Shown here piece after piece: positions 7,814-52,015 of a stretch of 64,000 nt of DNA (its first letter is position 1; the number at the start of each line of letters is the position of its first letter). The position numbers were made by a program, and so were the translations under genes. The stretch is taken from contig NZ_CP035534.1 in the NCBI RefSeq assembly GCF_009068765.1, forward strand, positions 620,001 through 684,000, read 5' to 3'. Source of the stretch: Sulfurimonas hydrogeniphila (lineage in GTDB: Bacteria; Campylobacterota; Campylobacteria; Campylobacterales; Sulfurimonadaceae). The notes beneath the pieces were generated by a model. It ran no database searches. It was given only the letters and a program-made list of their open reading frames with translations, and had not been told where the DNA came from.

Positions 7814-9052
7814 TTAGGATAGTGATGCTTGAAATACCCTTTGTGGGTTATAGGCAACATTGTTTTTATATATAGCTAAAATGATATGTGCAAGCTTCCT
7901 TGCAACAATCACAACAGCTTCCTTTTTGGCTCTACCTTGAGAGACCTTGTCAAGAAAAAGCTTGTTGAGTTGCTCATTATGCCTAATGGCAGCAATAGCG
8001 GCTTGATAGAGAGCTTTTTTAGCAAGCTTTGCACCTCTTTTTGCGATTGCACCGTAGGTGAGTTTATTACCTGATTGCTCTAGTGTAGGATAAAGACCTA
8101 AATAACCAATGAAGTGAGAATTATTTTTGAATCGCGCTAAGTCTCCACACTCACTAATAAGAGCAAAGATGGTTTTATCACTCACACCTGGTATGGTTCT
8201 AAGATTATCAATAATATTCATAATCTCTTGCTCTTCATTACTCTCAAGTTGCGGTGTTTGATTAAAAAGCTTTAACATCTCATTCTCAAGCTCTTTAAGC
8301 TCCTCTTGTAGAAGCTTAATCACTCGGATATGAGATTTAATAACATAAGCTCTCTCATCTACACCATTGCCTTGATAAACAGAGTGTTTGGCTAACTCTA
8401 AAAGCTTTGTAGCTTTTTCTTCATTGAAGTTATTGCCTTTGATACCCCGAAAGGTTTTTAGTATTCTCTCTACACTCGCATGATGATAATGCTTTGCAGT
8501 TGGATACTTCTCTAAAAGTGCCAAGCCTGTCACATTAAAGGGATCTCTTATCACTTGTTCCATCTCTGGGAATACCACAGCTAAGAGTGTAGAGATTTGT
8601 CTTTTATGCTTTTTCATCTCTTCAAGTAGATTATTCTTATGTCTATAGAGTGATTTGATACTCTGATAAGTATCTTCACTTACATAGGCTTTAGAGTATC
8701 TGCCTGATTTAATAAGAGCTGCTATCATTAAAGCATCAATGTTGTCATTTTTTACTTTCTTCATGCTGTCCATCTCTCTAAATCTATTTGTTTGATAAGG
8801 ATTGAGTAATAGTACATTAAATCCTTTTTCACTCAGATAAAGATAGAGATTTTCAAAGAAAATTCCAGTGGCTTCCATACCAATGGTAAAGGTTGATACT
8901 TCATCAATGGAGTTTAAAAGTAAAAGTAGCTCATTAAAGCCATTCTCATCATTGCTGAACTTAAGTGACTTCTTTATCACTTTATCATCTTGATTAACCA
9001 CACAGGCAACATGAAAACCTTTTGCTATATCTATACCTACATAATAGTGCAT
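7814..9052 (-). CDS. IS110 family transposase (DEDD recombinase)
   Basis: 412 aa from the ATG at 9052, chosen because AAGGA lies seven bases before it and the protein then starts MHYYVGIDIAKG, the usual opening; the longer frame to 9124 is unlikely. N-terminal RuvC-like DEDD domain: Asp in GIDIAK, Glu in GMEATG, Asp in DNIDALMIA. C-terminal Transposase_20 domain: IPGVSDKTIFALISECGDLARF, then GYLGLYPTLEQSG with the nucleophile-type Ser of this family. The frame is intact, so the element may still be active. IS110 recombinases are guided by a bridge RNA encoded in the element. Confidence 0.9.
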   Translation of the reverse strand: MHYYVGIDIAKGFHVACVVNQDDKVIKKSLKFSNDENGFNELLLLLNSIDEVSTFTIGMEATGIFFENLYLYLSEKGFNVLLLNPYQTNRFREMDSMKKVKNDNIDALMIAALIKSGRYSKAYVSEDTYQSIKSLYRHKNNLLEEMKKHKRQISTLLAVVFPEMEQVIRDPFNVTGLALLEKYPTAKHYHHASVERILKTFRGIKGNNFNEEKATKLLELAKHSVYQGNGVDERAYVIKSHIRVIKLLQEELKELENEMLKLFNQTPQLESNEEQEIMNIIDNLRTIPGVSDKTIFALISECGDLARFKNNSHFIGYLGLYPTLEQSGNKLTYGAIAKRGAKLAKKALYQAAIAAIRHNEQLNKLFLDKVSQGRAKKEAVVIVARKLAHIILAIYKNNVAYNPQRVFQASLS

Positions 9053-9084
9053 CTGTACATCCTTTCGTATGTTTAACTTTTTTC

Positions 9085-9240
9085 TTACAGCCTCGTAACG
9101 ATAGAGGATTGAGATAGAACTCATCCTGGCATCCTATGGGTAAGTTACTCAGGTTAAACGCAGTATGCTTTCTTAGATAGTTGGCATTACACCTCATAAG
9201 GAAAAATGACTGTCATTCAACTCTTTAACTGTAAGTTGTT
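9085..9240 (-). ncRNA. candidate IS110 bridge-RNA region
   Basis: Non-coding side 5' of the transposase, where IS110-group elements encode their bridge RNA. Plus-strand hairpins seen: CCTC/GAGG (9091-9107), GGA-TGAG/CTCA-TCC with one bulge (9106-9126), the palindrome AATGAC-T-GTCATT (9205-9217) and CAACT/AGTTG (9218-9238). The RNA itself, its limits and its guide loops are inference; if the element belongs to the IS1111 group the RNA would instead lie on the 7670-7813 side. Confidence 0.25.
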
Positions 9241-38431: not shown

Positions 38432-40072
38432 TTATTTTAATACCAAATAGATAAGTATAAAGTTTATAACTGTCATTATAGTAAAAGCCCTCTTATAAAA
38501 GAGTAAGGGTGATTTTTCAATGAGTGGTGCATTTTTAATAAAGTAGGGTTTTACCTTCTGCGGATGTGTAAGTTCATATTTCATCTCAGAGTAATGCTCA
38601 TACCTTTGGTCTTTTTGAAGTGCAATAGCACGCATGATAACACTGTCAAGCCAATCAGGTATATTTGAATTGTAATAACTCGGTTTTTTGGCTTCTTTGA
38701 ATGTCGGGTTTTGAAAGGGTTCTATCTCGCCGTAAGGGTATTTCCCCGTAAGACTTAAATAGAGTGTCACACCAATGGCAAAAATTTCGCTTGTTTCACT
38801 TATGGACTCGCCTTGAAATCGTTCAGGTGCCAAAAAACTCGGTGTACCGGCGCGGGACTCTTCTGAAAATATCTCTGTAATACTGCCAAAATCAATAACC
38901 TTGTATTCTGTATTATCATCGTCAATTTTGGCAATCATGATATTGTTTGGCTTGATATCACCGTGTACAAGATCATATTTAAGTAAAAACTGAGACATGT
39001 TTAAAAGTGTTTGCGCAAGTTCCACAGCATCATCTATCGTTACATGTAAGTGTGATGCCAGGTAATTATTTAAATCTTCTCCATCAAAGAGCTGCATAAC
39101 ATAGTATCGGGCACTTCTGTTTTTTGGAATGACAGCCTTTGGGAAAAACTTTGCTTTGAGACGTTTGGCATTCCATGCTTCTTTGACAAACAGATCTAAG
39201 ATCTGATTATCTTCTTTGGACTCAACCGGTGCAAACTTTATAACATATTGCTTTGTTTTTTTACTTGCAAGCCAGGTTCTTTCATTTTGTATGAGAGGTT
39301 TTTCAAGTTTATAGCCGTCTATGGTCTGACCTGCTTTGAGTGACCGTGGAATATCCAGTTTTTGCTGTTTGAGTATCTCTATCTCATCAGCATTGAGTAC
39401 TTCCAACACAACTGCTGTTGTATCATCAGGAAGATGGTCTTTTGTATGGTTACTTGCTCGCTTGACAAGAGCAATAGCTCCTTTTGAAATATTGTCTTTT
39501 ATTTCATTTTCAGAAAGTACATTATACAAACCATCGCTGCAAAGAAGAATTTTATCATTTTTCTGAATAATATTTTCAAAATAGTAGGGTTCTACATCCT
39601 CACTGATACCAATAGCCTGCGTCAGGACATTTTCATATCCTTCTTCTTGCATGGCATGGTCAGATGAGAGCTGTGTCAGTGAAGCATCTCTGAGGAGATA
39701 TACTCTGCTGTCTCCGACATTTACGCCGTATAAACGGTTTCCTTCTATAACAACGAGAGCAAGGGTTGTGATAAGTTCACTGCGTTCATAATTGAGTTGT
39801 GATTCTTTATAAAGAATTGTATTTATGGAATTGATAAATGTTTTTATAGATTTTTCGATTGACCATGACTTTGGGCGAATCTTAAAGTTGTTTATAAGAT
39901 AGGAGGTCACTCTTTTTGCTGCTTGGGCACCTTCTTCGGCACTGCTGACACCATCACAGACTATGGCAACACTCAGGTTGCCGATAGTTGCCATATCATA
40001 AAAATCATCTCCGGTCAGTTCTTTGGTCTTTGCAAGTGAGAACCCGGAAGTTTTAATATTACCTTTTGCCAT
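38432..40072 (-). CDS. bifunctional PP2C phosphatase / Ser-Thr protein kinase
   Basis: 546 aa. Residues about 10-235 are a PP2C phosphatase (CDGVSSAEEGAQAA, GVNVGDSRVYLL, LLCSDGLYN, PDDTTAVVLEV). Residues about 255-520 are a Hanks-type kinase with VIKFA Lys, HGDIKPNN catalytic loop, DFGS and APE. A single membrane segment ends the protein, so it is tail-anchored in the inner membrane. Fused PP2C-kinases next to narK and nitrite/nitrate reductase genes are known in marine gammaproteobacteria; here focA, nirA and narK lie upstream on the same strand. RBS AAAGGGG. Confidence 0.85.
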   Translation of the reverse strand: MAKGNIKTSGFSLAKTKELTGDDFYDMATIGNLSVAIVCDGVSSAEEGAQAAKRVTSYLINNFKIRPKSWSIEKSIKTFINSINTILYKESQLNYERSELITTLALVVIEGNRLYGVNVGDSRVYLLRDASLTQLSSDHAMQEEGYENVLTQAIGISEDVEPYYFENIIQKNDKILLCSDGLYNVLSENEIKDNISKGAIALVKRASNHTKDHLPDDTTAVVLEVLNADEIEILKQQKLDIPRSLKAGQTIDGYKLEKPLIQNERTWLASKKTKQYVIKFAPVESKEDNQILDLFVKEAWNAKRLKAKFFPKAVIPKNRSARYYVMQLFDGEDLNNYLASHLHVTIDDAVELAQTLLNMSQFLLKYDLVHGDIKPNNIMIAKIDDDNTEYKVIDFGSITEIFSEESRAGTPSFLAPERFQGESISETSEIFAIGVTLYLSLTGKYPYGEIEPFQNPTFKEAKKPSYYNSNIPDWLDSVIMRAIALQKDQRYEHYSEMKYELTHPQKVKPYFIKNAPLIEKSPLLFYKRAFTIMTVINFILIYLVLK

Positions 40073-40984: not shown

Positions 40985-41005
40985 AATGATTAATTTTTAA
41001 TCATT
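40985..41005. promoter_or_regulatory. inverted repeat AATGATTA-N5-TAATCATT
   Basis: Perfect 8-bp arms with five bases between, overlapping the nirA stop codon and lying before focA. The core TGATTA-N5-TAATCA is the same as at 44291-44307 in the narK/NO-reductase gap, suggesting one regulator, though here it could also fold as an RNA hairpin. Confidence 0.4.
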
Positions 41006-42931
41006 GTCAGCCAAGTTGATTAATGGAAGCAGTTCAGAAAAAACAACGGCTCTTTTTGCTTCAACATCCAGCATCTTAAAAACAAGTTCATTGATGTTCT
41101 TATCAATATCGGAAACTATTTTATTGAGAGGTATCAGTTTTTCTCTTGGATTTTCATTTGTAAATCTGTTGTATGCCGTATACGGTTCTTGTTTGGAGAG
41201 AGCAAAATAGAGCTTACGGCCAAGTTCAAAAAGTTCAAACTCTTCAATATGTCCTGTTTTTGGAATTTTATTGATATTTAAATCAATAGCAATGTTTTTT
41301 AATCGTAAATAAGCTTGGAGTTGCATATAAAAACCGATATATGCATGAGAATACTGTGCTAAAATTCTGTCATGAAATGCTTCAAATGATTCGTTTTTTA
41401 AACGCAGTTTTTTATATTCTAACACAAGAGTCTCAACAAAGTATTTAGAAAATTTCAGTGGAGCAGATTTGATAACGGTATACCCGTTTTTTCCCTCACT
41501 GACGATTTTTCCGCCTATGGTTATGTGGACACCGTCCTCGGTTTGTCCTTTCACTTTTGCTTTACAGCCTTCAAAACCGATGTCTCCTATCTCATGTGTT
41601 CCGCAGCCTTTGACACAGGCAGACCAGTACATTCGTACTCTCCCTGATTCAAGAGGAACAGCCTTACTTAAATATGCAGCCATTTCTATAGCATCCTCTT
41701 TGTTTTCAATAACGCCAAATGCACAGTGTTTGGTTCCTGCACAGGCGACAAGGTTGTTAAAGTAAGGCGTGTTTATATTTTTATATTTTATAAAAAAGGG
41801 ATCTTCTAAAAGTGCAGCCGTGTCTTTGACACCTAGAATGTAGATATTTTGTTCAACACTGAATCTGATTTCGTTATTGCCGTGATTTTGGCTTAACTCG
41901 GATACTTTTATCAGATCGCTACCTGTAAATATTCCCGAAGGTACAATAATCTGTACTCCAAATGAACCGTCTCGAAGTTGGATTTTTCCGTGTTCTGAGT
42001 CTACAGGATCTATTTGTGTCATTGTGTCACCGGCGGTGGCAAAATTTACGCCTGCAACATCACGAATGGCTGCAGAAATTTCAGCCATGCCGACAGCCTC
42101 AATGAGAAAGTGCAGTCTGTTTTTGTTTCTGTTGTCACGGAAACCATACTTTTGAAAGATTGCTATAAGTGCACCGTAGGCCTGTAAAACTTCTTCTTCG
42201 TTTGCCAAAAATATGTCTGCATTTTTTGCAATCATACCGACTCTGCCACCAAGAAACATATTGTAACCGTATACTCCGTCTTTTTGTGCAAGTACGAGAG
42301 AACAGTCATGTCCAAAAACATTACATCTGTTTGCGAGAGAGCCTGAAATCCCGGTATTGAATTTTCTTGGCAGTGTTGAGATCCAATCCGGATTTTTTAA
42401 AAATGTTTTTTCGATTTTTTTAAGTAAATCATACGAAGGAAGCACATTGTCAAAACCGTCTTTGTCAAATGGGTCTGTGACGATATTTCTAAAGTTGTCC
42501 ACACCTGTCTGGTAGGAGGTGAGTCCGACTTCTTCAAGTCCGTTTAAAACAGCAGGCATATCTTCGATATTTAAAAAACGGAGTTCAATTTGTGCTCTGG
42601 TTGTGATATCAATATAATCCTGACCGAAATTTTTTGCAATTTCTCCGATTTTTTTTGCCTGAATTGCGTTGAGGTGTCCCCCTGCAACTCTGACTCTCAT
42701 CATAAACTGCTTCGGCGTGAGACCGTCTTTGTCAAAGATTCCAAAACATTTCAAAAAATATTTTTTGTCTTCATCCTCAATTGCATCATATCCCTCTCGT
42801 GCATACTCTGTTATCTTTTCAAAAGCCTCCATAGGATTTTTAAGGTTTTTGACTGTTTCGATTTTATTAACTTTTTTACTTCTAGCTTCATATGCTTTTT
42901 CTAATACTTGTAATTGCAAAATATTCTCCAT
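40997..42931 (-). CDS. nirA: ferredoxin-type nitrite (or sulfite) reductase
   Basis: 644 aa from the ATG at 42931, nine bases after the narK stop; the longer frame lies inside narK. Two nitrite/sulfite reductase half-domains. The siroheme/4Fe-4S cysteines are present: CAGTKHC then ACVKGCG. Six-electron reduction of nitrite to ammonium in the cytoplasm, with ferredoxin as likely donor because no flavin domain is attached. Sulfite reductase is the alternative, but narK, focA and nasA around it favour nitrite. C-terminus extends about 60 residues past the usual end. Confidence 0.85.
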   Translation of the reverse strand: MENILQLQVLEKAYEARSKKVNKIETVKNLKNPMEAFEKITEYAREGYDAIEDEDKKYFLKCFGIFDKDGLTPKQFMMRVRVAGGHLNAIQAKKIGEIAKNFGQDYIDITTRAQIELRFLNIEDMPAVLNGLEEVGLTSYQTGVDNFRNIVTDPFDKDGFDNVLPSYDLLKKIEKTFLKNPDWISTLPRKFNTGISGSLANRCNVFGHDCSLVLAQKDGVYGYNMFLGGRVGMIAKNADIFLANEEEVLQAYGALIAIFQKYGFRDNRNKNRLHFLIEAVGMAEISAAIRDVAGVNFATAGDTMTQIDPVDSEHGKIQLRDGSFGVQIIVPSGIFTGSDLIKVSELSQNHGNNEIRFSVEQNIYILGVKDTAALLEDPFFIKYKNINTPYFNNLVACAGTKHCAFGVIENKEDAIEMAAYLSKAVPLESGRVRMYWSACVKGCGTHEIGDIGFEGCKAKVKGQTEDGVHITIGGKIVSEGKNGYTVIKSAPLKFSKYFVETLVLEYKKLRLKNESFEAFHDRILAQYSHAYIGFYMQLQAYLRLKNIAIDLNINKIPKTGHIEEFELFELGRKLYFALSKQEPYTAYNRFTNENPREKLIPLNKIVSDIDKNINELVFKMLDVEAKRAVVFSELLPLINLADND

Positions 42932-42939
42932 TTTCTCAT

Positions 42940-44220
42940 TTATATTCTTCCTCCGGCTGCAACGCCCCAGGTTGTTCTCCATCGTGTTTTTACCAAACTT
43001 ATTCCCATGATAGCTACAAGTACAACACCGGCAAATATCATAAAACCAGCCGAATAGCCGTCAAAGGCACCTTTTGACCATCCAAGCGTTTTAATAAGGG
43101 CTGTACCCCCGAGTCCGCCGGCTGCACCGATAATCCCTGTCATGATTCCAATATCTTTGCCAAATCGCTGAGGCACAAGTTGAAAAACTGCCCCGTTCGC
43201 CATGCCAAGGTTTGCCATTATTGCAAAGAGTACTGCAATTGCAACCCAAAACGGCAGAGTGACAGTTGCATTTACAATTGCCAATGCGGCTACAATACCA
43301 AAAAAGATATAAAGTGATTTGACACCACCCATTTTATCTGCAACAGCACCCCCGACAGGTCTCAAGACTGCACCGGCAAAAATTGTAAGCGCTCCAAAAT
43401 AACCGGCAATGACTTTAACATTGGGTTCATTAAATACACTGAGTCCAAAACTACTCATATCGGCTTGATAGGTGTTCATAAGATAAACTTTCATATATCC
43501 TGCAAATCCGACAAATCCTCCAAAGCTTACTGCATAAAAGAGGTTAAACCACCAAGTGTCTCTGTCACGTAAGAGTTTGGCATAATCTTTGAGTTTTTTA
43601 GGACGGGGCGTGTAAACCTCTTTTGGTGCATCTTTTGCCAAAAAGATGTATGTTACAAAGATTAAGGTTGATAATGCTCCACCAACTAAAAAGACTGCCT
43701 GCCACCCCCAAAGTTCTGCTATTTTTGGAGCAAACATAAAGTCAACAACAACACCAATATTGCCGGCACCTGCAATTCCCAAAACGACTCCCTGCAGTTT
43801 TGGCGGATACCACTGTCCTGCCTGTGGCAATGCAACCGCAAAAGAAGCACCTGCAAATCCGAGACCGACAGCTACAATCAGGAGTTCATTATAGGTAATG
43901 GTCTCTCCTCTGAAATAGGCGTAAAACAGCACAGATATAACAACTGCCTGACTCATAAGCGCTGTTTTTTTCGCACCGAATTTATCAACACCGAATCCAA
44001 GTACAATACGAAGCAGTGCTCCTGCCAAAATCGGAATAGAAAGCAGTGTGGCTTTTTGTGAGGCACTCATTATAAATCCGTGCATTGCCAATGATTCACT
44101 GATTTCTGTTGCCAATGGGCCTAGCATGGTCCAGACCATAAAGCTAAAATCAAAATAAAGAAAAGCTGCAAAAAGTGTTTTTGCATCGCCTTGACCTTTG
44201 AGGGCTTTAAAACTTGCCAT
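42940..44220 (-). CDS. narK: nitrate/nitrite transporter (NNP family MFS)
   Basis: 426 aa from ATG 44220 (GGAGA ten bases before); the ATG at 44229 is too close to that site. About twelve membrane helices. The two NNP signature loops are visible: GIAGAGNIGVVVD and GIIGAAGGLGGTAL. Imports nitrate or exchanges nitrate and nitrite. First gene of the minus-strand series; divergent from the NO-reductase-like genes with a 214-base regulatory gap. Confidence 0.9.
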   Translation of the reverse strand: MASFKALKGQGDAKTLFAAFLYFDFSFMVWTMLGPLATEISESLAMHGFIMSASQKATLLSIPILAGALLRIVLGFGVDKFGAKKTALMSQAVVISVLFYAYFRGETITYNELLIVAVGLGFAGASFAVALPQAGQWYPPKLQGVVLGIAGAGNIGVVVDFMFAPKIAELWGWQAVFLVGGALSTLIFVTYIFLAKDAPKEVYTPRPKKLKDYAKLLRDRDTWWFNLFYAVSFGGFVGFAGYMKVYLMNTYQADMSSFGLSVFNEPNVKVIAGYFGALTIFAGAVLRPVGGAVADKMGGVKSLYIFFGIVAALAIVNATVTLPFWVAIAVLFAIMANLGMANGAVFQLVPQRFGKDIGIMTGIIGAAGGLGGTALIKTLGWSKGAFDGYSAGFMIFAGVVLVAIMGISLVKTRWRTTWGVAAGGRI

Positions 44221-44288
44221 ATTATACATTCTCCAATGAAATTTAATAGTGTAATTATAGTGAAAAATATTTCCGATTTAAAAATATT

Positions 44289-44434: not shown

Positions 44435-45049
44435 ATGACATTTACAAATTCGGCTGAATTGTTGTCTTTTCACTGGGTTGCTTACTCTATATATGCTGCA
44501 ATGATTATTTCTGTTGTTGCATGGTTTGGGTATAACCTGACAAAAAAAGATGCCAAGTCAGTTTTTCGTATTCCATTTTACTGGTATATGGCATTTTTGG
44601 TTGCAGGCGGTGTGGGACACCATATTTTTACATACAATACAATTCCGTGGGTGTCACAGGATATTGACAGACATAACATCAAACCGGATGCAAAGTATGA
44701 ATTTGAGATTAAAAATCATAAGTGGCTGGGTTTGCCAAAACAGATAGTTATACAGTGTGGACAAACGGTTGAGTTTGATGTACACAGCAGAGATCTGGTG
44801 TATGGGTTTGGACTCTTTCGTCAAGACGGTTCCATGGTGATGCAGATGCAGGTCAATCCCGGCACGGATGTCAACGGTATCCTGGACTCCAATGATATTT
44901 TATGGACATTTAATCATAACGGTGTTTTTGATTTAACATCCACTGAATATTCCGGACCCAGACAGTACAGCGAAGACGGTAAAGATTTAATGCTGGTGAA
45001 AGATTTCGTTAAAGTCGTAGGCTGTAAAGATAATGGAGGCATTCAATGA
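44435..45049 (+). CDS. CuA-less subunit II of gNOR-like nitric oxide reductase
   Basis: 204 aa. Two N-terminal membrane segments (about 12-34 and 48-66), then a cupredoxin-fold domain outside. It aligns with cytochrome oxidase subunit II (TFNHNGVFDLTSTEYSGPRQY), but the CuA ligands are gone: the motif Cys positions are Ser169 and Ser173 and the His is Gln177. Absence of CuA is expected for the divergent NOR types rather than oxidases. TAAGGAGAGC before the ATG; next gene overlaps by four bases. Confidence 0.75.
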   Translation: MTFTNSAELLSFHWVAYSIYAAMIISVVAWFGYNLTKKDAKSVFRIPFYWYMAFLVAGGVGHHIFTYNTIPWVSQDIDRHNIKPDAKYEFEIKNHKWLGLPKQIVIQCGQTVEFDVHSRDLVYGFGLFRQDGSMVMQMQVNPGTDVNGILDSNDILWTFNHNGVFDLTSTEYSGPRQYSEDGKDLMLVKDFVKVVGCKDNGGIQ

Positions 45050-46734
45050 GTTATATAAATACATTAATAAATGGTACAAATTTTGACCATAAAGGCTTAA
45101 ATGCTTTGCAAAAGGTAACACTCAGACCGGTTGTTATGGCATTTTTATTTTACGGACTGGTCGCTTTGGAGGGTATGATTATGAGAATGGTTGAGGTCGG
45201 GCATGTGCCGCTCAATCCTCTGCCTGAGCAGTTTTTTCATCCGGAACATTTCTTTTCCATCATGACGGTACACCCGATTGTCGGTATATTCGGTTCGACC
45301 TATCAGCTGGTCTTTGGTGCTTTTACCTTTTTGGTGCCATATCTTACGAAAAAACCGCTCTACAGTGTAAAACTTGCCAACTGGACCTGGATATTGATTA
45401 CTTTAGGGACTGCTTTGGCATGGATAGCCGCATTTGTATGGCAGTATGCACCGTTATATACATTGTACTGGCCGCTTCCTGCCGATACACACCAGTTTAA
45501 TGTTATTGGCGGTATTGTCTTTATTCTGGGTGTAGCATTAATTATGGTTGGAACTTTAGGCTTTATCTACAATATATATGCAACAATTTTTGCGCGGGTA
45601 GGTATTCATAAAAACAAGACAACAAAAGAACTTTTAATCTCAGGATTTGGTATAGACGGATTTTTAAATCTTATCAACAAGCTGAGAGGAAAACAGCCTT
45701 ATACAAAAGAGCCGGCTTTGGCACTTCCTGTTGTGGCAATCTTCCGTGGTACGGTAGATACTTTCTTGGATGCACTGGTGATTTTGGGTGCAGGTATTTT
45801 AATCCTGGTTTATTTGGTTTTTGATGCAAGCGGACATGCACTTGATGTCACGGCGATTGATGCCCTTTTGTACAAGAACTTTTTTTGGTGGGGGCTTGAT
45901 TTGGTTGCGGATGGTCTGGTTCTGATTTATGTGGCAGGTTCGTGGTATTTGCTTGCCACATTAATCACCGGACAAAAGCTTTTTATGGAAAATGTTGCCC
46001 GTGCGGCGTTAATGCTTGAGCTTTTGGTTTCCTGGATGGTCTGGTCGCATCACCTTCTTGGTGATCAGGGACAACCTGAAATGATGAAACTTATCTCCGG
46101 TGAGATGGTGACTGCCTTTGAACTACTGACCCAGGGACTTGCACTCTTTATTACCCTTGTGACACTTTGGAAGGCCCGTCCTCTGAAAATGACTATGGAA
46201 CTAAAATACCTTCTCGGCGGACTTGTAGGGTTTGGTCTGGCTGTGCCTGCTGCAATTATCCAGGCAGATATGGGGATGAACAGAGTGTTGCACAATACGC
46301 AGTGGATTATCGGTGCGCATGTGCATATTGCTTTGATTGTCGGATTGTATATGACACTCTATTCGGCGCTGTATGTTTTATGGCCATTGGTAACAAACAA
46401 CACAAAACTCTATTCTCACAAACTGGCAAATACACATTTTTGGCTGCATCTTATTGGCGGTATCGGTATGGGCGCATTTATGGGAATGGCAGGACTTGAC
46501 GGGATGCTCCGTCGTCACCTTTATGTGGATGGGCAGTTTAATCCAGACATGATATTTGCCGCTATTTTTGGAACGATGCTGCTTGTCGCCTGGGCAGTAT
46601 TCTTATACAATATTATTATGAGTGTGGGTATCAAAGGCTTAATCGGTATATTTTTGCCTGCAAAAGATGCAACGGCTTCTTATGGGATAGAAGAAGAGTT
46701 GGAACCGGCAGATGATCCGGCATTTGCGCAGTAA
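45046..46734 (+). CDS. gNOR-like heme-copper nitric oxide reductase, catalytic subunit
   Basis: 562 aa, about 13-14 membrane helices. Heme ligands: His76 (MTVHP) and the pair His425/His427 (GAHVHI). Metal-centre His335-His336 (WSHHLLG) are kept. The third metal ligand, in WWGLDLVADG (281-290), is Asp285 where oxidases and cNOR have His, and the NOR Glu is Asp289. Loss of one His with Asp in its place, with a CuA-less partner, fits the gNOR group as I recall it. Probable role: reduction of NO to N2O, using quinol or another donor. Confidence 0.7.
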   Translation: MSYINTLINGTNFDHKGLNALQKVTLRPVVMAFLFYGLVALEGMIMRMVEVGHVPLNPLPEQFFHPEHFFSIMTVHPIVGIFGSTYQLVFGAFTFLVPYLTKKPLYSVKLANWTWILITLGTALAWIAAFVWQYAPLYTLYWPLPADTHQFNVIGGIVFILGVALIMVGTLGFIYNIYATIFARVGIHKNKTTKELLISGFGIDGFLNLINKLRGKQPYTKEPALALPVVAIFRGTVDTFLDALVILGAGILILVYLVFDASGHALDVTAIDALLYKNFFWWGLDLVADGLVLIYVAGSWYLLATLITGQKLFMENVARAALMLELLVSWMVWSHHLLGDQGQPEMMKLISGEMVTAFELLTQGLALFITLVTLWKARPLKMTMELKYLLGGLVGFGLAVPAAIIQADMGMNRVLHNTQWIIGAHVHIALIVGLYMTLYSALYVLWPLVTNNTKLYSHKLANTHFWLHLIGGIGMGAFMGMAGLDGMLRRHLYVDGQFNPDMIFAAIFGTMLLVAWAVFLYNIIMSVGIKGLIGIFLPAKDATASYGIEEELEPADDPAFAQ

Positions 46735-46900: not shown

Positions 46901-47506
46901 TTGATAAACTTAGACCGAGTTGCACGTGAAATCAAGACTATAGGACTGTACGATTTGGTTTTGCAGGATGTGCAAAGAATTGCCGGGAAAAACAGAGTAG
47001 ATGAAGAAGAAATTCTTCAGACATTAGAGAAAAATCCGGAAATTCTGCAAGATTACATGCAGACAAATGTCGAATACAATTTGAGCAATATCCATCTCAA
47101 AGATATCAATGTGCAAAATCTCAAAGATGAATGCAAACAAGAAGCGCAAACCTTTAATGAAAATCTGGCAAAATTGCGTGTCTTGGAAAAATATACACTT
47201 GATTTTGAACAGAGTGCCACGCTTGTCATCATTTTTTCCATTGAGTTTTTTGTTCTTTTTTCTGTGCAGTATTTTATAGTATTGCTAAATCTCAAAGCGT
47301 GGCAATGGTGGATATATACACTCTTTGCCTCCTCTGTTGCTTTTGCCTACTGGTATGGTAAAAAGCAGAGCAGACTGTATGCAAAAAACAAACAGCGTTA
47401 CGAAATGCTTTATCTGCAGACATTACAACTCTTGGAAGCACTGGAAGAAAAAGAGTGTATCAAAAAAGAGGACTTATTGATTCATGAGTGTGAAGAACAT
47501 GTCTAA
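46901..47506 (+). CDS. hypothetical membrane protein, NO reductase/NasA region
   Basis: 201 aa from a TTG start with AGGAAAAAACAG before it. A long charged, helical N-terminus (about 1-105), two adjacent membrane segments (about 106-128 and 131-150) and a coiled-coil-like tail. No family recognised. Overlaps the next gene by 23 bases; same transcript direction as the NO reductase and NasA genes. Confidence 0.6.
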   Translation: MINLDRVAREIKTIGLYDLVLQDVQRIAGKNRVDEEEILQTLEKNPEILQDYMQTNVEYNLSNIHLKDINVQNLKDECKQEAQTFNENLAKLRVLEKYTLDFEQSATLVIIFSIEFFVLFSVQYFIVLLNLKAWQWWIYTLFASSVAFAYWYGKKQSRLYAKNKQRYEMLYLQTLQLLEALEEKECIKKEDLLIHECEEHV

Positions 47507-47987
47507 AACAATCAGTGTTGATTATATTTGGAACAAAGAACTGGCGCTGCAGACAAGCAAGCTTTTTTATGATTATGATATGCGTCATTCTGCCAAAAGA
47601 TATATAGGCTGGTTTTTTGTCGCTTTGGTGCAGTTTGGTATTGTCGGTGCTTTGAAGCATGAAAGTTACGGTATTTTGTATCTTTCAACCTTTTTGGTCT
47701 TTTACTGGTATTTTGGAAGATGGTTTCTGCGAAAAAGAATGTTGTTAAATTTTTACAAAAAAAATATGCCTCAAGATACACAAGTGCATTTTATTATTGA
47801 TACAGAAGGCTTGCATAAAGATAAAAAGCGTATTCCCTGGGAAGAAATTACAAGGATAATAGAACTTGAAAACGGGATTTTGGTGCAAAGCCTGCATGAT
47901 ACACTTTTTTTTCAAAATTCTGCCTTTGGATCTGTTGATGAACGCAAAGAGTTTTTGGCGCTGGCCAAAGACAAAGGAAAACGCTAA
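47484..47987 (+). CDS. YcxB-like membrane protein
   Basis: 167 aa (ATG 47484; ATG 47499 is an alternative). Two membrane segments (about 40-60 and 62-85), then a soluble end with FIIDTEGLHKDKKRIPWEEITRIIE and FFQNSAFGSVDERKEFL, which resembles the YcxB C-terminal domain. Function of that family is unknown. Its stop overlaps the next ATG (TAATG). Confidence 0.6.
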   Translation: MSVKNMSKTISVDYIWNKELALQTSKLFYDYDMRHSAKRYIGWFFVALVQFGIVGALKHESYGILYLSTFLVFYWYFGRWFLRKRMLLNFYKKNMPQDTQVHFIIDTEGLHKDKKRIPWEEITRIIELENGILVQSLHDTLFFQNSAFGSVDERKEFLALAKDKGKR

Positions 47988-48085: not shown

Positions 48086-48161
48086 AAATTAAACAAAGAA
48101 TTATAAAAATATTCATTTGTATAGAGTATAATTTCATCACTATTATATGGAGATACCTTAC

Positions 48162-49727
48162 ATGCAGACACCTTTAGAAAATTTTATAGAGTATAAAGCC
48201 GATACAGGGATGCAATGTGGGAATTACTCTATAGATATACCGCCGTTAAAAGAGGGGGAACAGTACCGTTTTCATTTTGATGCTGTTGCCTGTGTCGGGT
48301 GTCGGTGCTGTGAAGTTGCCTGTAACGAACAAAACAACAATCCTGCCGATATAAAATGGCGTCGTGTCGGGGAGATGGAAGGCGGAGATTTTCCGGCTTT
48401 TACCCAGATGCTCAATTCTATGAGTTGCAATCACTGTATAGATCCTGAATGTCTCACAGGCTGTCCGACGGAATCATATATAAAGATAGCCGAAACAGGC
48501 ATAGTCGTGCATGATGACGATACCTGTATCGGCTGTCAGTACTGCACATGGAACTGCCCGTACGGTGTTCCTGTTTTTCATGAAGAGAGAAATATTGTTA
48601 CAAAATGTCATATGTGTCATGAACGGCTTGATGTCGGAGAGTCTCCTGCCTGTGTGCAGGCCTGTCCTGCAGGAGCTATTGAGATTGAGGTTGTCAATGT
48701 CAAAGAGTGGCTGGAACGTGACATAGACGAACAGGCAAACATGCCGTTTTTGCCGGATGCACGCATAACAAATTCTACAACGCGCTACACGCTTCCCGAG
48801 AATCTGCCGGATGATATGAAAGAGATGGATGAACACATCTTAAAACCTGCACATAAAGAACTGCCTCTTGTTTTTATGACAGTTTTGACGCAAATTTCAC
48901 TCGGTGGGTTTTTGGCGCTCTTTTTAGGAGACTTTATGAGTCTGTTCGGATTTGAGAGTACCAACTGGATTATGGCACTGCTTGTGATGCTTCCCGCGGC
49001 AATCGGGCTGCCTCTCTCAGCCTTGCACCTTGGGCGTCCGTTTTTGGCGATGACAGCCATGAAAAATATAAAAACCTCGTGGCTCTCCCGCGAGGCTTTG
49101 GCTTTGGGTGTTTTTACAGGGCTTATGAGTGCCGTAGTGGCAACATACTTTTTCGATATCTCCAATATATTGCGTTTGTTCCTTGAAGCACTGACTTTAG
49201 CTGTGGGAATCTATGGAATTTATGCACAAAGTATGATTTACCGTATTCGTGCCCGTCCTTCCTGGAACAGGATTACAACGAATTTCAAGTTCTTCGGTGT
49301 GGCATATATCGGAATCTTTTTGGTTGCATTTATCAGCTCTGTATCAAGCGTGCATGAAGCGATTATTCCTTTGACAACCTTGGGTATGCTCGGTGCTTTG
49401 GCACAGCTTTTTTTCTCTTATGAAGATATAAGAACACTTGATGTCAAAGAGAATGCATACCAACTGCAACGGACAAAAAGACTTTTAAATGAAAATTTTC
49501 ATAAGCTCAAAATGATTCGTTTCGCCACGTTGATACTCGGTGGTGTGGTACTGCCGCTGTTTACTTTGGTCTTTGTAAGCGCTTCGTTACATGTAACGGC
49601 TTCTGTGATGCTTTTTTTGGCAATCATTATTGCCTTTGTGAGTGAAATAAGTGATAGATTTTTATTTTATACCACGGTTGTTCCTCTTGGAATGGCAGGT
49701 GGATTTTTTGTAGGGAAACAACGATGA
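48162..49727 (+). CDS. fused 4x[4Fe-4S] ferredoxin and DmsC-type quinol-binding anchor
   Basis: 521 aa from the ATG at 48162 (GGAG nine bases before; ATG 48147 is the alternative). Residues about 40-195 bind four 4Fe-4S clusters: CVGCRCCEVAC, CNHCIDPECLTGC, CIGCQYCTWNC and CHMCHERLDVGESPACVQAC. From about 230 there are eight or so membrane helices like DmsC. In DMSO reductases these are separate DmsB and DmsC proteins; here they are one. It should pass electrons from menaquinol to the partner molybdoenzyme, whose gene overlaps by four bases. Confidence 0.85.
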   Translation: MQTPLENFIEYKADTGMQCGNYSIDIPPLKEGEQYRFHFDAVACVGCRCCEVACNEQNNNPADIKWRRVGEMEGGDFPAFTQMLNSMSCNHCIDPECLTGCPTESYIKIAETGIVVHDDDTCIGCQYCTWNCPYGVPVFHEERNIVTKCHMCHERLDVGESPACVQACPAGAIEIEVVNVKEWLERDIDEQANMPFLPDARITNSTTRYTLPENLPDDMKEMDEHILKPAHKELPLVFMTVLTQISLGGFLALFLGDFMSLFGFESTNWIMALLVMLPAAIGLPLSALHLGRPFLAMTAMKNIKTSWLSREALALGVFTGLMSAVVATYFFDISNILRLFLEALTLAVGIYGIYAQSMIYRIRARPSWNRITTNFKFFGVAYIGIFLVAFISSVSSVHEAIIPLTTLGMLGALAQLFFSYEDIRTLDVKENAYQLQRTKRLLNENFHKLKMIRFATLILGGVVLPLFTLVFVSASLHVTASVMLFLAIIIAFVSEISDRFLFYTTVVPLGMAGGFFVGKQR

Positions 49728-52015
49728 TAAGTAAATTAAAAGATTTTTTAGGGTTTGATATAAAAGAAGAGAAATACAAACTCTCACATGATGAAACATT
49801 CGGCATGATAGCCGATGCAAAAAAACCCGATAAATGGGTCTTTTCAACCTGTGGATACTGCGGGGTCGGCTGTGGACTTTACATCGGTGTCAAAGACGGT
49901 AAAGCTGTTTACACAAAAGGCAATCCAAAACATTTTGTCAATCAGGGAACACTCTGTCCAAAAGGTTTGAGTGAACATCAAATGCTTAACTCTCCCCATA
50001 GAATTCAAACCCCGTTGATAAAACAAAACGGTGAGCTGAAACCTGCAACTTGGGATGAAGCCTTCACGAAAGTAAGCAGTGAATTTAAGAGAATTCAAAA
50101 AGAACACGGAAACAAAGCCGTTGCTGTCATTGGCACAGGGCAGTTTTTGACAGAAGAATTTTACACTTTGGGTAAATTTGTCCAGCTTGGTCTTCGCACA
50201 AATAATTATGACGGCAATACAACCTTGTGTATGGCATCTGCTGTTATGGGTTACAAACAGTCTCTTGGCAGTGACGGTCCGACAAGCTCATATGAAGATT
50301 TTGCACTTGCCGATACTATTTTTTTGGTGGGAGCCAATATTGCGGACAATCATCCGATACTTACCTTACATGTAAACAAAAACCCAAAAAAGAAAGTCAT
50401 CGTTATAGACCCCAGGGCCTCGAAAACATCCCAAATGGCAGATGTGTATGTGCCTGTAAAACCGCGTACAGATCTGGCGCTTTACAACGGTCTGGCTTAC
50501 ATTGTGATGGAGCAGGGATGGGAAGATGAAGGTTATATAAAAGCAAATACAAACGGATACAAAGAGCTGAAAAAACATTTGCAGGATTATCCGCCCCAGG
50601 AGGTGGCAAACATTACAGGCATTGATGTCAAAACCCTGTATGAACTCGCACGTGAATTTGTCTCAAGTAAAAGTGTTATCACCGGTTGGACAATGGGTGT
50701 GAACCAGTCTTTTATGGGAACAGATACTGTCAGTGCCATCATCAATCTGCATCTTTTGACAGGGCATATCGGTCGAGAGGGAACGGGGCCTTTTAGTATA
50801 ACAGGGCAGTGTAATGCGATGGGAACACGTGAGACAGGGTTCACTTCATCTCTTCCGGGATACAGAAACTTTGGGGATGAAAAGGCTTTAAAAGAATATG
50901 CGGAAATTGTCAATGTTCCTCAGGAAATTATTCCGCGTGAACGTGGCTATAAATATGCCGAAATTATTGATGCCATAGACAGAGGTGAGATAAAAGCGCT
51001 TTGGATAACGGCGACAAATCCGCTGGTTAGTTTTGTCAATCAGGACAAACTGCGAAAAACACTGAAAAAACTTGATTTGCTGGTCGTGCAGGATGCTTTT
51101 TTAGGCGATACGGCACAAATAGCAGATGTTGTTTTCGCTGCTGCGACCTGGGGTGAGAAAGAAGGTGTTTATACGAATTCTGAACGTCGCTGTAACAAGG
51201 CGAACAAAGCAGTAGAACCCATAGGTGAGGCAAAAAGTGATTTTGATATCATTCTTGAATTTTCAAAATATTTTGAAGGTGTGAATGAAATGCTTTTTCC
51301 AAACTGGAGCCAGCCTCGTGATGCTTTTGAGGAGTGGAAAAAAGTCTCAAAAGGACAGTTGTGTGACTACAGCGGTATGAGTTATGAGCTTATAGAAGAG
51401 TTGGGCGGGATTCAATGGCCATGTAACGAACAGTTCCCAAAAGGGAGTAAAAGACTCTACACCAAAGATATTCCTTTTAGAACATCCGATAAAAAAGCGA
51501 AACTTGTATGTGTGCAATGGCATCCGATGGCAGAGCCTGTAAGCCCTGAGTTTCCTGTTATTTTAAACACTGGAAGGACGGTTGAACAGTGGCATACACG
51601 AACAAAGACAAGGGATATAGCAATTCTTGACAATTTGGCTCCTGAAGCCTGGGTGGACATAAATCCAAAAGATGCGGTCAAACTCAAAGTAAAAAGCGGT
51701 GACAGAATGAGTCTTTCATCTCCAAGGGGGCGCATTGATGATGTTATTGTACGGGTGACATCAAGTGTACGCGAAGGCACGGTATTTGTCCCGTTCCATT
51801 TTAATGAACAGCTTGTCAATACGTTGACCAATGAGAGTTTTTGTCCAAAGTCAGGGGAACCTAATTTCAAACAAACGGCAATACAGCTTCACTCAGAAGA
51901 GGTACCGGAGGGTCTGATACTTGAAGAGGAACAATCAAGCGGAGCGATTGCACATCACAAGGTCGTTTATGAAGGGGTTGCCTATAAAGAAAAAGAGGTG
52001 CATTTGCAACAATAG
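49724..52015 (+). CDS. nasA: NasA-like cytoplasmic molybdopterin nitrate reductase
   Basis: 763 aa. N-terminal 4Fe-4S site C43, C46, C50 and C78. The Mo-ligand Cys is C169 in NTTLCMASA, as in NasA and NapA. Molybdopterin-binding C-terminal domain from about 640 (SGDRMSLSSPRGRIDD). No Tat signal, so it works in the cytoplasm. NapA is exported, so this is closer to assimilatory NasA, but its coupled quinol-type anchor is unusual for NasA. Reduces nitrate to nitrite most likely; another oxyanion cannot be excluded. Overlaps the anchor gene by four bases. Confidence 0.8.
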   Translation: MISKLKDFLGFDIKEEKYKLSHDETFGMIADAKKPDKWVFSTCGYCGVGCGLYIGVKDGKAVYTKGNPKHFVNQGTLCPKGLSEHQMLNSPHRIQTPLIKQNGELKPATWDEAFTKVSSEFKRIQKEHGNKAVAVIGTGQFLTEEFYTLGKFVQLGLRTNNYDGNTTLCMASAVMGYKQSLGSDGPTSSYEDFALADTIFLVGANIADNHPILTLHVNKNPKKKVIVIDPRASKTSQMADVYVPVKPRTDLALYNGLAYIVMEQGWEDEGYIKANTNGYKELKKHLQDYPPQEVANITGIDVKTLYELAREFVSSKSVITGWTMGVNQSFMGTDTVSAIINLHLLTGHIGREGTGPFSITGQCNAMGTRETGFTSSLPGYRNFGDEKALKEYAEIVNVPQEIIPRERGYKYAEIIDAIDRGEIKALWITATNPLVSFVNQDKLRKTLKKLDLLVVQDAFLGDTAQIADVVFAAATWGEKEGVYTNSERRCNKANKAVEPIGEAKSDFDIILEFSKYFEGVNEMLFPNWSQPRDAFEEWKKVSKGQLCDYSGMSYELIEELGGIQWPCNEQFPKGSKRLYTKDIPFRTSDKKAKLVCVQWHPMAEPVSPEFPVILNTGRTVEQWHTRTKTRDIAILDNLAPEAWVDINPKDAVKLKVKSGDRMSLSSPRGRIDDVIVRVTSSVREGTVFVPFHFNEQLVNTLTNESFCPKSGEPNFKQTAIQLHSEEVPEGLILEEEQSSGAIAHHKVVYEGVAYKEKEVHLQQ

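Follow-up and report, generated by a model that had tools for sequence, protein, structure and literature searches.

Two overlapping genes of Sulfurimonas hydrogeniphila encode, as judged from their sequence, a two-subunit enzyme of the haem-copper superfamily, which is likely a gNOR, a membrane-bound nitric oxide (NO) reductase present in addition to a cNOR and accompanied by a dedicated small protein. The genes lie at positions 44435 to 46734 of the 64,000-nucleotide stretch analysed here, the window (contig NZ_CP035534.1, positions 620,001 to 684,000 of the forward strand). gNOR has already been named from Sulfurimonas, and the enzyme belongs to this known kind. A preliminary description of the DNA had proposed membership of the gNOR group, and this is still the best filing, made by published features. 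Three features speak for it: an Asp in the active site, a cupredoxin subunit II without CuA, and relatives, 82-99% identical, from records whose titles name Sulfurimonas or Sulfurovum. In the excerpt available of Table A4 of PMC8756737, gNOR with an active-site Asp is tabulated for Sulfurimonas, Sulfurovum and Persephonella. The same excerpt gives as a gNOR feature an Asp at the position where oxidases carry Tyr and cNOR carries Glu, and here Asp289 stands there. A separate cupredoxin subunit II without haem c, another gNOR feature, is encoded by the open reading frame (ORF) directly upstream of subunit I. The biochemistry of gNOR had been described as scarce, in line with the passages of PMC11388526 at hand, where it is counted among three NO reductase families that are only “proposed”, outside the four characterised ones; yet it occurs in 21 of the 61 genomes sampled from the family.

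The residue numbers given beforehand for Asp285, Asp289, His335, His336, His425 and His427 of subunit I are all correct, and helix II contributes a further ligand, His76. MAFFT was used to align 8 gNOR rows with 23 references (A-family 7, B-family type 5, C-family 3, cNOR type 4 and qNOR type 4), and the column of Asp285 holds the helix-VI His in all 23 of these, so that an Asp does replace a metal-ligand His. The printed hhalign alignments pair Asp285 with this His both in cNOR and in the B-family oxidases, and Asp289 with the Glu of the former and the Tyr of the latter. A gapped phmmer alignment to the Aquifex oxidase 7deg places the motif off by one residue, without the Asp285-His pairing. 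We prefer the ungapped reading, because MAFFT, the two hhalign comparisons and the conserved Trp four residues before (Trp281; Trp in 21 of the 23 references, Ser in two) agree. The columns of His76, His335, His336 and His425 are His in 31/31 rows, and that of His427 in 30/31, with Lys in a row from a Thermus plasmid. This Thermus thermophilus copy (pTF24b, AP031329.1, L197:1339-3024) is annotated as a ba3 oxidase subunit I, but its helix VI has His-x3-Gln and its helix X has HFK; from its sequence, the low-spin haem His appears to be replaced by Lys.

All five His ligands, Asp285, Asp289 and Glu359 are invariant in 119/119 loci. These loci represent 99 distinct sequences (19 identical sets, mostly genomes present in two collections), and the counts are biased upward, as the closest 80 of 330 relatives, with Campylobacterota-group titles, were kept; the phylum search added more distant ones. 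In one of the 119 subunit I copies (L155, G150:C60), an in-frame stop falls at residue 363, which could reflect a sequence error or a broken gene copy.

The acidic residues point toward NO chemistry. In helix VI, neither the His-x3-Glu of cNOR nor the His-x3-Tyr of the A- and B-family oxidases is present, and Asp-x3-Asp stands in their place in 119/119 gNOR loci. The Tyr is shared by all but one of the 12 A/B-family rows, the exception being the Thermus plasmid row with its Gln, and is missing from gNOR. The column of Glu359 corresponds to the Glu of the “FSALE”-type motif in 8/8 cNOR/qNOR rows, and hhalign pairs Glu359 with the same Glu of the host NorB. In cNOR, this Glu is important for catalysis. 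At this position the A/B/C families (15 rows) show I, L, V or A, and no Glu. gNOR is therefore acidic at both NorB Glu positions, with Asp289 at the first and Glu359 at the second.

Subunit II was described as keeping the fold without the CuA ligands, and both parts hold: the model is a cupredoxin, and Cys-x3-Cys occurs in 0/118 homologues. The model (mean predicted local distance difference test, pLDDT, 81.9) consists of a beta domain and two long N-terminal helices, which are taken as membrane helices. The best Foldseek matches are the CuA domains of Thermus ba3 oxidases (top E 2.4e-07; template modelling score 0.55 by target, 0.38 by query), and laccases are matched too, as is usual for cupredoxins; a Pfam and NCBIfam search at E 0.001 gave no match. 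In an alignment with 8 reference subunits II, the CuA Cys-x3-Cys has become Ser169-x3-Ser173. Ser169 is kept in 115/118 homologues and Ser173 in 108/118, with Ala in the other 10/118, while the first His ligand of CuA is replaced by Tyr123 in 118/118. By its sequence, subunit II is thus a CuA-type domain that has lost its ligands. The Cys-x3-Cys is also missing from the reference quinol oxidase and from one other A-family row. Because the CuA ligands are missing, and because no cytochrome c gene lies beside gNOR, we infer that quinol is the electron donor. The passages available from PMC8906906 call gNOR quinone-oxidising and non-electrogenic.

The ORFs of the two subunits overlap by 4 nt. Subunit I scores 172.5 bits against Pfam COX1 (cut-off 34.8) and stays below every NCBIfam cut-off, the best being CtaD_CoxA with 86 bits against 670.75. 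Its structural model (mean pLDDT 75.2) has the superfamily fold, and is poorly determined at residues 286-288 and 409-425. In VIA-align, the NO reductases of Roseobacter (4xyd, Z 30.1) and Pseudomonas (3o0r, Z 29.1) stand among oxidases of like Z, and therefore the fold does not tell an NO reductase from an oxidase.

A third gene accompanies the two subunits. The 201-aa (amino acid) protein encoded downstream has one clear hydrophobic stretch (residues 102-134, Kyte-Doolittle), and is probably membrane-bound; no Pfam model reaches its cut-off with it, and NCBIfam gave no match. The gene directly follows gNOR in 69 of the 70 loci whose right flank reaches 0.9 kb or more, L066 being the exception. 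A homologue is present in 20 of the 21 family genomes with gNOR, compared with 0/40 of those without. At the phylum level, a profile found it in 18 of the 20 gNOR genomes and in 0/180 of the others (Fisher 1e-23, kinship ignored; the profile was built partly from genomes later searched, and 16 candidates were scored in genomes with more than 16). The gNOR and 201-aa searches of the phylum are taken as one draw, because their handles agree as far as they were listed, which leaves aside 160 rows of the one and 162 of the other. In 18/18 phylum genomes carrying both, the coordinates place the homologue within about 250 bp of gNOR. In the gNOR group at 66-68% identity, the identity of its homologue to the protein encoded in the window falls to 19-27%. 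The linkage, seen within Campylobacterota, makes the 201-aa protein a candidate third component of gNOR. It is followed in 57 of the 62 loci that have a flank of 1.5 kb or longer by the gene of a 167-aa protein, which has no strong hydrophobic stretch in the hydropathy profile and reaches 20.3 bits against PF14317, below the cut-off of 23.3.

Upstream of subunit II lies an exact palindromic box of the FNR/DNR type. Such a box was found in 53 of 91 distinct 160-bp gNOR upstreams, compared with 16/490 upstreams of an uncurated background, the other open frames of at least 200 aa in the 80 named loci. When TTGAC/GTCAA halves were allowed, the counts rose to 67/91 and 24/490. Conversely, 38/91 gNOR upstreams have no strict box and 24/91 have neither form. 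The boxes lie at a median of 61 bp 5' of the match start, and first-order Markov shuffles produced an exact box in 0.1%. Window-wide, allowing up to one mismatch gives 4 boxes against 7.34 expected, which is no enrichment; the evidence lies in position and conservation. The pattern occurs 19 times in the host genome and its reversed control twice. The four exact boxes outside open frames stand before gNOR, napA, uvrB and a 108-aa ORF that precedes norC; boxes with a close gene start also include those of a hemerythrin-like and a weakly porin-like gene. Around nosZ, only one-mismatch boxes were found. The 108-aa ORF (L108:15009-15335), located between its box and norC, has no Pfam match. Three CRP/FNR-type regulators of the host exceed the Pfam cut-off (G000 C1:740930, C1:171022 and C1:2103423), and one of them lies about 1 kb before nosZ. 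gNOR is probably switched on together with nitrate respiration, by a regulator that would be of the CRP/FNR type.

Besides the family genomes, gNOR was found in 20/200 phylum genomes, the host being included in both sets. Among GTDB species genomes, 330 of 341 pattern matches encode a relative. The 310 pattern-matching stretches in viral contigs encode no relative, and the seven plasmid records are annotated as oxidases and have <30% identity. NirS is present in 16 of the 21 family genomes with gNOR, compared with 9 of the 40 without, and a close cNOR (at least 67% identity) in 17/21 compared with 9/40.

The host itself, a single contig of 2.34 Mb, has three genes of the COX1 family, namely gNOR, the cbb3 oxidase subunit CcoN (683.6 bits, cut-off 583.15) and a NorB of the cNOR type. 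The latter (C1:756892) adjoins NirS and has no NCBIfam match; it is so labelled because of its His-x3-Glu motif, a neighbouring cytochrome c gene and its place in the tree. With this NorB, the idea that gNOR is the only NO reductase of the host was ruled out. NosZ (870.1 bits, cut-off 625) and NapA (1392.3 bits, cut-off 904) were also found. As Nap, NirS, cNOR and NosZ are all present, gNOR adds to a gene set leading from nitrate to N2.

The preliminary description also had gNOR sitting with nitrate-reduction genes, and this was true in part. The neighbours in the window resemble assimilation genes, and the denitrification genes that we found lie elsewhere in the genome. NarK-, NirA- and FocA-like genes, a fusion of a PP2C phosphatase and a kinase, a 4Fe-4S/DmsC fusion and a NasC/Fdh-like gene surround gNOR; all their NCBIfam scores are below cut-off, and their sequences make them a tentative nitrate-assimilation set. 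Judged by the markers used, the 28 of 80 loci flanked on each side by 5 kb or more include 8 with nitrate-assimilation genes, 7 with nir/nor genes, 13 with neither and none with both. A conserved nitrate-gene neighbourhood of gNOR was thereby ruled out.

Several of our observations weigh against the reading proposed here. The host already has a cNOR, so the need for a second enzyme is not obvious. The link to cNOR weakens when any NorB match is counted (17/21 family genomes with gNOR, 16/40 without), NirS and NorB are both missing from 4 of the 21 (two of the four are only 81-82% complete), and all these co-occurrence comparisons ignore shared ancestry. The 201-aa protein was not detected in the most divergent gNOR subclade (about 60% identity; G008, G108 and G178). 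Open frames as called contain 15 of the host genome's 19 exact boxes, four of these 15 within about 80 nt of the frame start. CRP/FNR-type proteins occur in 14/14 control genomes too, and therefore having them says little. The predicted structure of subunit I is weak at the active site. Finally, both tree and profile group gNOR by sequence with the oxidases and not with cNOR/qNOR.

The neighbourhood suggests another role, in which gNOR would serve NO detoxification tied to nitrate assimilation, clearing the NO that leaks from neighbouring nitrite and nitrate reductases, and would not be respiratory. gNOR here stands between NarK/NirA/FocA-like and NasC/Fdh-like genes, a NasA-like enzyme (>600 bits) is encoded by 17 of the 21 family genomes with gNOR and by 14 of the 40 without, and the four genomes lacking NirS and NorB matches would fit as well. 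However, the assimilation neighbourhood is confined to 8 of the 28 wide-flank loci, with nir/nor genes beside gNOR in 7/28, and the upstream box is one that napA and the ORF preceding norC have as well. We regard a detoxifying role as unlikely.

The tree bears on a further alternative, an enzyme of the superfamily's B-family side that reduces oxygen, or both NO and O2. A phylogeny had been proposed as a check. In it, gNOR forms its own clade (100/100) outside the A-, B- and C-family and the cNOR/qNOR rows, though grouped with the A and B oxidases (98/97), on a long branch and with the order of A, B and gNOR not settled. The tree position inside ordinary oxidases that had been named as a refutation of gNOR thus did not appear. 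The tree contains 31 of 32 rows: an Azospirillum fragment (L199) was dropped, its reading frame having no motif, the unannotated L194 was read from stop to stop, and L198 was used over its BLAST range only. Some cNOR/qNOR labels were assigned from motif and neighbours (L191, L205 and L207 are annotated as cbb3-type oxidase, L194 is unannotated). The Thermus row L197 stands on a very long branch, the program warns that long branches meet, and the cNOR rows do not fall on one side of a branch. The profile comparisons agree with the grouping, as hhalign gives 99.7% probability against the B family (E 2.9e-25), 65.7% against cNOR (E 5.8e-5) and 0.3% against qNOR. In addition, the passages available from PMC6967387 argue that the B-type sNOR, said there to lack the conserved NorB glutamates, is possibly a high-affinity oxidase. 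Yet gNOR has no helix-VI Tyr, one of its His ligands is replaced, it is acidic at the two NorB Glu positions, unlike sNOR as described there, and the host has a cbb3 oxidase. Taken together, this makes the alternative highly improbable. That the protein is a degenerate, non-catalytic relic or NO sensor, with the missing His as decay, could be read from the changed metal and CuA ligands and from the in-frame stop in 1/119 copies, but we give it hardly any credence, with the changed residues invariant in 99 distinct sequences, the other ligands kept, and operon partners and promoter box recurring.

If the enzyme is an NO reductase, it would catalyse 2 NO + 2 e- + 2 H+ -> N2O + H2O. Electrons would pass from quinol to a low-spin haem (His76/His427) and on to a binuclear centre that combines the high-spin haem on His425 with a non-haem metal on His335, His336 and Asp285, with all these roles assigned by homology. 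Two His and one carboxylate are a typical ligand set of non-haem iron, and by this analogy the metal is most likely iron. Asp289 and Glu359 might supply protons and charge, and the 201-aa protein could act as a third subunit or as an assembly factor. A more far-reaching version is that the Campylobacterota gNOR is a multi-part NO reductase instead of the published two-subunit one, with a 201-aa predicted membrane protein as a third component found only with gNOR, which reached a two-His/one-Asp iron centre independently of cNOR, from the oxidase side, and regained acid at the two NorB Glu positions. We offer this version tentatively, and lean somewhat against it.

To the known gNOR kind, this study adds the partner gene, the Glu359 match, the regulatory box and the presence of a cNOR in the same host. 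The first three find no mention in the excerpted passages of the gNOR literature, and may already be known. The exchange of a metal ligand is an opening to ask what decides between NO and O2 chemistry in the superfamily, and the partner gene is a possible reason why expression of the two known subunits alone might fail. The common promoter box would be a regulatory link in a phylum reviewed, in the passages available from PMC6682613, as having no FNR orthologues.

Some of the surroundings deserve a separate mention (Table 1). Downstream of gNOR, a fusion of a 4Fe-4S protein and a DmsC-like anchor is paired with a NasC/Fdh-like molybdenum enzyme, whose best NCBIfam scores are below cut-off, first Fdh-alpha (582.6 bits, cut-off 666.25) and then NasC (521.7, cut-off 1100). 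The PP2C phosphatase-protein kinase fusion (window 38432-40072) lies near the NarK- and NirA-like genes and has matches in 17/80 gNOR loci. An IS110-type transposase adjoins a DnaJ-like gene (window 7814-9124).

Table 1. Position of gNOR, its putative partners and the adjacent genes in the window.
Feature	Position	Strand	Remarks
NirA-like ferredoxin-nitrite reductase	40997..42982	-	context; PRK09566 315.1 bits (cut-off 594)
NarK-like nitrate/nitrite transporter (major facilitator superfamily)	42940..44229	-	divergent neighbour, context; TIGR00886 232.3 bits (cut-off 311.7)
FNR/DNR-type box TTGATATATATCAA	44366..44379		exact palindrome, 55 bp 5' of subunit II start codon
gNOR subunit II	44435..45049	+	204-aa ORF
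gNOR subunit I, catalytic by homology	45046..46734	+	562-aa ORF, Pfam COX1
gNOR-associated 201-aa protein	46901..47506	+	TTG start; predicted membrane segment, about residues 102-134
167-aa protein	47484..47987	+	23-nt overlap with 201-aa gene; weak YcxB-like C-terminus
4Fe-4S/DmsC fusion and NasC/Fdh-like molybdopterin enzyme	48147..52015	+	context

Among known systems, the enzyme is closest to the gNOR (norGH) of Sulfurimonas, Sulfurovum, Persephonella and Ca. Methylomirabilis, which, as far as the excerpted descriptions go, have the same active-site Asp, two main subunits and a cupredoxin subunit II. With cNOR (NorBC), it has in common the superfamily fold and an acidic residue at the same two positions. 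cNOR, however, keeps the helix-VI His and has a cytochrome c partner, whereas gNOR is a separate clade without either; no NorC-type subunit stands alongside it, its partner being the cupredoxin. A probable quinol donor and acid at the same two positions are likewise found in qNOR, but the qNOR rows are long, single fused chains that keep the His, unlike the two ORFs of gNOR. The B-family ba3 oxygen reductases give the strongest profile match, and the ba3 CuA domain is the closest to subunit II. Nevertheless, helix VI of the five B-family rows reads His-x3-Tyr, with Gln for Tyr in the Thermus plasmid copy, and their CuA domain keeps its Cys-x3-Cys, while gNOR has Asp-x3-Asp and no such Cys motif.

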